This document shows positions 40,491-41,535 of a DNA stretch of 64,000 bases, piece by piece. The notes under the pieces are model-generated. The model ran no database searches. It worked only from the letters and a program-made list of their open reading frames with translations, and was not told where the DNA came from. Source of the stretch: Nakamurella lactea DSM 19367 (GTDB lineage: Bacteria; Actinomycetota; Actinomycetes; Mycobacteriales; Nakamurellaceae); the NCBI RefSeq assembly GCF_000426645.1, contig NZ_AUFT01000008.1, forward strand, positions 124,001-188,000, given 5' to 3'. The position numbers and the translations under genes are program-made. The stretch's first letter is position 1. Each line of letters opens with the position of its first letter.

Positions 40491-40862
40491 TCAGTCCGGC
40501 GTTGCCAGATTGCTCGGCAGTGTGGGTTTGCCTGCCGGCTTCGGCGCCGGTTTGGTCGCGGGCGGCGGTGCTGGTTTGGGGTTCGGCTTCGGTGAGCGCT
40601 TCAGGGCCGGGGCCGCCGGCCGGAATCGTTGCTGTGCGCCCTGTTTGCTGAGGCCGTAGAGCGCTCCGATGTCCTTCCAGGTGGCGCCGGACGTGCGCGC
40701 CGCGACCACGGTGGCGGCTTCGAGTGCCTCGAGCTGTTCCCGCGAACTGCGCACCGCATCGAGCCGGTCCAGCGGGTCGCCGACATCACGGAGCGCCTGT
40801 AGGGCCCGCTCGAACCGTTTGACGTGCGCCGGATCTGCCACGCCGGTCAGAATAGCTTGCAT
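40491..40862 (-). CDS. Small HTH DNA-binding protein with Lys/Pro-rich tail
   Basis: A 123-residue protein. A helical N-terminal part (HVKRFERALQALRDVGDPLD) precedes a helix-turn-helix, GATWKDIGALYGLSKQGAQQ. The last 36 residues are nearly only Lys, Pro and Ala (KRSPKPNPKPAPPPATKP), a disordered basic tail. The HTH is similar to that of the protein at 11043-11438. Two TCAA(C/T)-N5-GTTGA sites lie in the divergent region toward the polylysine microgene, so it probably controls itself and that gene. Confidence 0.75.
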   Translation of the reverse strand: MQAILTGVADPAHVKRFERALQALRDVGDPLDRLDAVRSSREQLEALEAATVVAARTSGATWKDIGALYGLSKQGAQQRFRPAAPALKRSPKPNPKPAPPPATKPAPKPAGKPTLPSNLATPD

Positions 40863-40872
40863 TCGCCGGGCG

Positions 40873-40910
40873 TCAACGATATGTTGATGGCGGAGTCAAT
40901 GAACAGTTGA
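40873..40910. promoter_or_regulatory. Two operator candidates TCAA(C/T)-N5-GTTGA
   Basis: TCAACGATATGTTGA (40873-40887) and TCAATGAACAGTTGA (40896-40910) lie between the HTH gene and the polylysine microgene. They match the pattern at 11457-11485, which also sits beside an HTH gene of the same type. Two half-sites in each dyad and two dyads per locus suggest cooperative dimer binding. Confidence 0.6.
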
Positions 40911-40965
40911 CCACGAGCCCGCGTTCCGACGAGTGCGGGCAGCAACCGCGCAGAGGAGGTTCACC

Positions 40966-41034
40966 ATGTCGAAGAAGAAGGACAAGAAGGACAAGAAGGA
41001 CAAGAAAAAGAAGAACAACAAGAAGAAGAAGTAA
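40966..41034 (+). CDS. 22-residue polylysine microprotein
   Basis: The ATG at 40966 follows an excellent ribosome site, AGAGGAGGT (40952-40960), at ideal spacing. The 22 codons encode Met-Ser and then 15 Lys, 3 Asp and 2 Asn; Lys-Lys-Asp repeats fill the middle and the peptide ends in four Lys. The codons mix AAG and AAA and include GAC, unlike the GC-rich genes around. It is bracketed by operators upstream (40873-40910) and a perfect 15-bp hairpin downstream (41047-41094), so it looks like an independent transcription unit. Its function is unknown; binding to nucleic acid, ribosomes or anionic lipids would fit the charge. Confidence 0.7.
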   Translation: MSKKKDKKDKKDKKKKNNKKKK

Positions 41035-41046
41035 CTTCTGGTTCCA

Positions 41047-41094
41047 CGAACCCGCCCGCTCACCGGCCCGTTGCCGACCGAGCGGGCGGGTTCG
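41047..41094 (+). terminator. Strong hairpin after the polylysine gene
   Basis: CGAACCCGCCCGCTC (41047-41061) pairs perfectly with GAGCGGGCGGGTTCG (41080-41094), 15 bp with an 18-base loop, starting 12 bases after the TAA. No long U-tract follows, as is common in high-GC actinobacteria. Confidence 0.75.
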
Positions 41095-41141
41095 CTGTAT
41101 CCGGGCCCACCGCCGTCCGGGCCGACCGGCAGGTAGGCCTC

Positions 41142-41205
41142 TGTGCTCCGGAGCCGCTGTGGTCCGGAGTCAGTGTGGTCCGGAGTCACTGTGGTCCGGA
41201 GTCAC
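41142..41205. repeat. Tandem array of four 16-bp units
   Basis: Units TGTGGTCCGGAGTCAC at 41158-41205 (three copies, one with a single change) and a degenerate first copy at 41142-41157. It is the first of three adjacent tandem arrays upstream of the helicase gene. I see no gene in 41095-41663. Confidence 0.85.
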
Positions 41206-41209
41206 GGTC

Positions 41210-41265
41210 GGGACCCATTTGTCTGGACCCACTTGGCTGGACCCGCTTGGCTGGACCCACTGTTG
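41210..41265. repeat. Tandem array of four 14-bp units
   Basis: Units related to TGGACCCACTTGGC: 41210-41223, 41224-41237, 41238-41251 and 41252-41265. The two middle copies differ at one base; the outer copies are more diverged. It follows the 16-bp array after four bases but has a different unit. Confidence 0.8.
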
Positions 41266-41305
41266 TCCGCTGTTGTCCCGACCCGGGTCGCCGTCAGCCC
41301 CGATT

Positions 41306-41535
41306 GCGACGTCTCGACGTGCTTCCGGTCGCCCGGCGTGGGTTCCGGCTGCGTTTGCGACGTCTCGACGCGGTTGCGGTCGCCCGGCGTGGGTTCCGGC
41401 TGCGTTTGCGACGTCTCGACGCGGTTGCGGTCGCCCGGCGTGGGTTCCGGCTGCGTTTGCGACGTCTCGACGCGGTTGCGGTCGCCCGGCGTGGGTTCCG
41501 GCTGCGTTTGCGACGTCTCGACGCGGTTGCGGTCG
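41306..41535. repeat. Tandem array of 51-bp units, four and a half copies
   Basis: Units begin GCGACGTCTCGACG and end GGCTGCGTTT: 41306-41356 (few changes), 41357-41407, 41408-41458 and 41459-41509 (the last three identical), then a 26-base partial copy at 41510-41535. The unit length is a multiple of three, so all frames stay open through it, but I see no gene function; the array ends about 130 bases before the helicase ATG. It looks like a minisatellite that can vary in copy number. Confidence 0.9.

Follow-up and report, generated by a model that had tools for sequence, protein, structure and literature searches.

A conserved polylysine microgene paired divergently with a ClpC2/RelI-type regulator gene in Nakamurella and Pseudonocardia

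A 22-codon polylysine frame in Nakamurella lactea DSM 19367 is very probably a real, translated and selected microprotein gene. This conclusion comes from comparison with relatives; there are no transcript, ribosome or peptide data. Comparison establishes the gene, its frame, Shine-Dalgarno (SD) site, terminator and operators, as well as its partnership with a small helix-turn-helix (HTH) gene, with which it forms a divergent pair. The HTH product is in all likelihood a repressor of the ClpC2/RelI type that controls both itself and the microgene, which is inferred by analogy with ClpC2, without binding or reporter data. The features below are numbered within the window, the whole 64,000-nt stretch that was analysed.

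40491-40862, minus strand: small HTH protein of the ClpC2/RelI type (sequence profile, AlphaFold2)
40849-40876, minus strand: predicted HTH-gene promoter, -35 TTGACG (into operator 1), 16-nt spacer, -10 TATTCT
40872-40888, no strand assigned: operator 1, GTCAACGATATGTTGAT, one mismatch to GTCAA-N7-TTGAC (motif comparison with the ClpC2 operator)
40880-40885, plus strand: TATGTT, putative microgene -10 within the core of operator 1, weak in this genome (direct reading)
40895-40911 (G000:C6:164895-164911), no strand assigned: operator 2, GTCAATGAACAGTTGAC, perfect GTCAA-N7-TTGAC (motif search)
40952-40960, plus strand: SD site AGAGGAGGT, AGGAGG-to-ATG spacer of 6 nt
40966-41034, plus strand: polylysine microprotein frame MSKKKDKKDKKDKKKKNNKKKK (direct reading and HTH-anchored homologues)
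41047-41094, plus strand: perfect hairpin with a 15-bp stem, probably an intrinsic terminator but lacking a T run (folding, inverted-repeat check)

The microprotein has 22 aa (ATG 40966, TAA 41034), with 15 Lys, 3 Asp and 2 Asn, exactly as the first-pass annotation, made from the sequence alone, had stated. Its claims of an ideally spaced ribosome site and of a perfect 15-bp hairpin 12 nt past the stop also held, the hairpin arms (41047-41061 and 41080-41094) being 100% complementary. The RNA fold of 40912-41110 gave z = -4.0 against shuffles, and a scanner for T-run terminators did not call the hairpin. When the peptide was compared with NCBIfam models, which are perhaps insensitive at 22 aa, there were zero matches up to E 10, and an Rfam search returned nothing above threshold for the microgene. 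Between the terminator and a RecQ-like helicase, tandem arrays were observed at 41137-41261 and 41304-41535 (16 bp x 4.3, 14 bp x 3.6 and 51 bp x 4.5 (98% identical)). The same genome also contains a second Lys-rich short frame, MPKKRKKKKKGKKKKGKKKGKNRSGPGTR (L002; G000:C11:92716), with no SD site visible.

A blastn comparison of a 451-bp window region with relatives returned short Lys-rich frames, and in three same-genus genomes the polylysine frame and a gene orthologous to the window's HTH gene were divergently oriented. HTH-anchored searches were then made with the HTH protein or its alignment as the query, and the microgene was not used. The HTH protein search of 17 genomes recovered five strong orthologues in the window's genus, four of which had the microgene beside them; at the fifth (G012), the HTH gene and operators were kept and no polylysine frame was found. 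The HTH-alignment search of 62 Pseudonocardia genomes gave 21 orthologues (89-114 bits), and a divergent polylysine frame was present at 14 of them, for example MGKKKKDKKGKKKK and MAKDKKKKDKKGKKSKKK. The frame was thus found at 18 of 26 HTH-anchored loci overall. Some of the Pseudonocardia genomes had also been found by a microgene pattern; the HTH search itself was independent of the microgene. In Pseudonocardia dioxanivorans CB1190, a microgene was placed by computation at about NC_015312.1 4638085-4638129.

The 18 frames encode peptides of 13-22 aa with about 74% Lys, no Arg in 272 residues and a mean net charge of +9.8. All 18 microgenes were preceded by an SD site with 4-6 of 6 matches, compared to a background over all ATGs of these loci in which 9% had at least 5, and a stem of at least 9 bp followed 16 of the 18 frames against 20% in the background (a strong hairpin was lacking at L025). 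The hairpin sequences were unrelated among these loci, as expected for terminators kept by function. Frame length differed by whole codons among homologues, and synonymous variation was seen (AAG/AAA, GAC/GAT, AGC/TCA/TCG and GGC/GGT, with GCN and ACN in Rokubacteria); GAC, GGC, AGC, TCA and AAC codons broke the AAG run in the HTH-anchored frames. The HTH gene was the sole gene common to all 18 flanks, indicating that the HTH-microgene pair is the unit. The first-pass annotation had proposed looking in relatives for the frame and its SD site flanked by an HTH gene on one side and a terminator on the other, and this arrangement was found. It had also stated that loss of the frame or SD site while the DNA drifts would refute it; the frame and SD site were kept, whereas the hairpin sequence and flanks diverged. 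Its view of a regulated, independent gene and not chance is therefore supported by the HTH-anchored homologues, SD sites, hairpins and operators.

At the remaining 7 of the 21 Pseudonocardia HTH loci, the place of the microgene was taken by a gene unrelated to it, encoding about 95-110 aa, with the same operators and an SD site. This replacement family (motif DCHRAG; L186, L188 and L193-L197) did not reach the curated Pfam cut-off with any model, and its PDB matches were weak, mostly to designed helical proteins. In P. autotrophica (L063), the HTH gene and a replacement gene were on contig 33, while a polylysine microgene with two perfect operators was on contig 22, indicating that the link survives without adjacency.

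The ClpC2 protein of Mycobacterium binds the operator CGTCAAC-n5-GTTGACG and represses itself, as shown by experiment, and its authors infer operators over the -35 and -10 elements plus a leaderless transcript (PMC10030653). The 'operator-like dyads' of the first-pass annotation matched this known operator, the two window copies being off at one or a few positions. Both 17-bp dyads sit in the HTH-microgene intergenic region. Across relatives, GTCAA-N7-TTGAC occurred in 2-4 tandem copies in these intergenic regions, and operators were present at every HTH locus. Elsewhere in the genomes, tandem copies mostly accompanied paralogous HTH genes, many of whose products have a ClpC2-like C-terminal extension (judged by size and eye, with no domain search). 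At 19 of 25 relatives' loci the operator region contained an extended -10 (chance 1.7%), whereas the window itself yielded no such call; forward -35/-10 pairs were predicted in 14 of the 25 loci and reverse pairs in 12.

The HTH frame encodes 123 aa in all. Its true start is likely the GTG at 40841, giving a leaderless gene; homologues also begin there, and the predicted promoter puts the transcription start at about that position. AlphaFold2 gave a confident four-helix core with the HTH at residues 62-83. When the family profile was compared with PDB sequences, RelI was the best match (9sdc, E 9.4e-11) and the Rv2667/ClpC2 structure was also matched (8ada, E 6.6e-5, 50 positions); with the window sequence alone, the E values were 2.7e-5 for RelI and just 0.085 for ClpC2. 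Because Foldseek, run on the AlphaFold2 model, returned nothing significant, the assignment to this family depends on the sequence matches. Conserved Glu residues lie in the long helix, and no Pfam domain of the C-terminal ClpC1-like (cyclomarin-binding) kind was found in the protein. In the window the gene is flanked by the microgene and by a gene for an APH-family protein, with no RelS-type toxin. The C-terminal tail of the window protein is Lys/Pro-rich (KRSPKPNPKPAPPPATKPAPKPAGKP; 40491-40620, minus strand), a feature absent from the relatives compared.

We propose that the microgene has its own transcription unit, divergent from the HTH gene, and that an HTH dimer would occupy two to four tandem operators overlapping the divergent promoters and, as inferred from ClpC2, repress both genes. 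A signal not yet identified would relieve the repression, and a short, Arg-free, disordered polylysine peptide with a net charge of about +10 would then be made. As the second residue is A, G or S, the initiator Met would probably be removed. Once made, the peptide would most likely be a soluble polycation that acts in trans on polyanions of the cell, with RNA (ribosomal or other), DNA and polyphosphate as candidates. Binding to cellular polyanions is inferred from composition only, and we see as much reason to doubt it as to expect it; the functional guesses of the first-pass annotation (RNA, ribosome, polyphosphate, membrane) were neither confirmed nor excluded. Since Arg is wholly absent despite the high-GC genomes, lysine itself possibly matters, for example for polyphosphate or ribosome binding or for amine chemistry, which is speculation. 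For the whole explanation, comprising the gene, its HTH regulation and a polyanion-binding peptide, the balance tips only slightly in favor. Against it, one third of the Pseudonocardia HTH loci carry the unrelated gene, G012 has no polylysine frame, and in the window itself the microgene has only a weak promoter.

Compared with known systems, the window protein has the same HTH type (by profile match) as ClpC2 (Rv2667), an actinobacterial autorepressor with the same operator, in tandem and overlapping -35 and -10, and a proposed leaderless start. However, ClpC2 has a C-terminal ClpC1-like domain binding cyclomarin A that the window protein lacks, and the window HTH gene faces a divergent polylysine microgene, whereas the ClpC2 paper (PMC10030653) describes none. 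RelI, the antitoxin of RelS (PMC13284704), is likewise a short HTH protein of similar size. In RelS-RelI (Rv2663-Rv2664), the RelE/ParE-like RelS toxin is in the same operon, while the window pair has a divergent polylysine peptide instead; inverted repeats were not found upstream of relS-relI (PMC13284704), in contrast to the HTH-microgene loci, all of which have operators. The ribosomal proteins bS22, bL37 and bTHX are tiny and highly basic like the polylysine peptide. They mix Arg and Lys and have conserved sequences, whereas the peptide has no Arg, is a near-homopolymer and matches no NCBIfam model. The nucleoid protein Lsr2 is a neighbor of the microgene in one genus and has no sequence relation to it.

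The wider distribution was surveyed with a degenerate polylysine-frame pattern, which matched 5 of 399 genomes of the order (0 for the reversed control). A scan of 84,980 species took in 80 loci, in which 83 matches were complete in-frame frames of at most 25 aa with more than 45% Lys and three were not; about one third would be expected in frame from the variable gap of the pattern. Actinobacteria with microgenes included Pseudonocardia, Actinomycetospora, Kineosporia, Dactylosporangium, Actinoplanes, Virgisporangium, Frankiales and others. In another genus (f12/g12; genomes of 8.5-9.6 Mb), the microgene was divergent from lsr2 in all four genomes. Microgenes at these lsr2 loci and in Dactylosporangium, Actinoplanes and Kineosporia had no HTH gene nearby. 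At the lsr2-linked loci (L004, L005, L006, L009, L043 and L044), an acyl-CoA-dehydrogenase-like gene followed the microgene in at least two genomes.

Genomes of the Rokubacteria order matched the pattern in 33 of 60 cases (control 0), often with two microgenes in tandem, and had a gene like the AbiEi-type antitoxin/regulator upstream and recG downstream. At these loci (L048, L050, L052, L083, L118, L123 and others), the order was the AbiEi-like regulator, one or two polylysine microgenes, a CCTCCC hairpin, an SD-led frame of about 95 aa and recG; the hairpin might compete for the next SD site. Further matches were in Eisenbacteria, Planctomycetes, Verrucomicrobia and Anaerolineales. The Opitutaceae/Verrucomicrobia frames (L051, L074, L084, L095, L109 and L117) lacked a clear SD site and sat 3' of a 4-alpha-glucanotransferase-like gene; at several of them the stop was followed by a hairpin. 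We do not claim that microgenes outside Actinobacteria share their ancestry, as near-homopolymers could have arisen repeatedly by convergence.

Four other explanations were considered. In a toxin-antitoxin-like pair, the HTH protein would be a RelI-like antitoxin and autorepressor and the polylysine peptide a growth inhibitor. Sequence places the HTH protein nearest to RelI, the two genes occur as a unit only patchily and in flanks that are not conserved, and the upstream neighbor in Rokubacteria matches an AbiEi-type antitoxin/regulator. However, this reading is weakened because many microgenes occur without an HTH gene nearby; besides, the genes are divergent with no co-transcription, and no RelS-like frame is common to the 18 loci. 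We regard it as unlikely. Slightly less likely still is a peptide dedicated to modulating the HTH repressor, for example as an anti-repressor on its conserved acidic helix in a feedback switch. That these two genes alone are common to the loci and that the long helix has conserved Glu residues speak for it, and the microgenes without an HTH gene in other genera and phyla, together with the unrelated gene that can take the partner's place, speak against it.

A leader peptide, in which ribosome stalling at Lys codons would control the hairpin and a downstream gene, has in its favor the Lys-codon run followed by a hairpin and the conserved small frame and recG downstream in Rokubacteria. It is very unlikely and was rejected as an attenuator, because no downstream gene is common to the 18 HTH-anchored loci; in addition, the downstream gene is convergent to the microgene in same-genus relatives and the hairpin is terminator-like. 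A small RNA or terminator element with an incidental frame, or an AAG microsatellite, would suit the purine-rich repeat and short transcript, yet is all but excluded by the SD site at 18 of 18 loci, the in-frame start and stop, the synonymous changes, the D, G, S and N codons interrupting the AAG run and the lack of an Rfam match above threshold, with chance or a microsatellite ruled out by the reversed-pattern controls, frame statistics and HTH-anchored recovery.

In the preferred reading of a microprotein gene under a ClpC2/RelI-type repressor, the regulator half represents a variation on a known type and the novelty lies in the polylysine half. No description of polylysine microproteins was found in the open-access literature searched (subscription papers and preprints were outside the scope), and the microprotein, which matches no family tested, is new unless described elsewhere. 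Such microgenes are far below the size called by annotation pipelines, and the trypsin of standard proteomics would destroy a lysine peptide, so the whole class could have been overlooked. With a defined repressor, operator and terminator, the microgene is directly testable in harmless strains that are in culture, and ClpC2/RelI regulators, hitherto tied to antibiotic sensing and a toxin, gain a new output. A bolder reading is that free-standing, near-homopolymeric polylysine microproteins are a functional gene class in several phyla, placed in Actinobacteria under a dedicated ClpC2/RelI-type repressor, and act as genetically encoded polyamine- or protamine-like effectors that adjust RNA, ribosomes, DNA or polyphosphate when needed; we offer this tentatively, since we would slightly sooner expect it to fail than to hold.

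A plasmid search gave no match. A phage origin was rejected: 55 viral contigs matched the pattern, but nearly all had no SD site before the ATG, and the matches were interpreted as internal starts or Lys-rich tails belonging to longer frames rather than as free-standing units. Lys-rich ends recurred in these viral contigs (L198-L252), MGKKKPKKKKK and MAKKKKMMRGGMAKKKK among them, mostly within longer frames.
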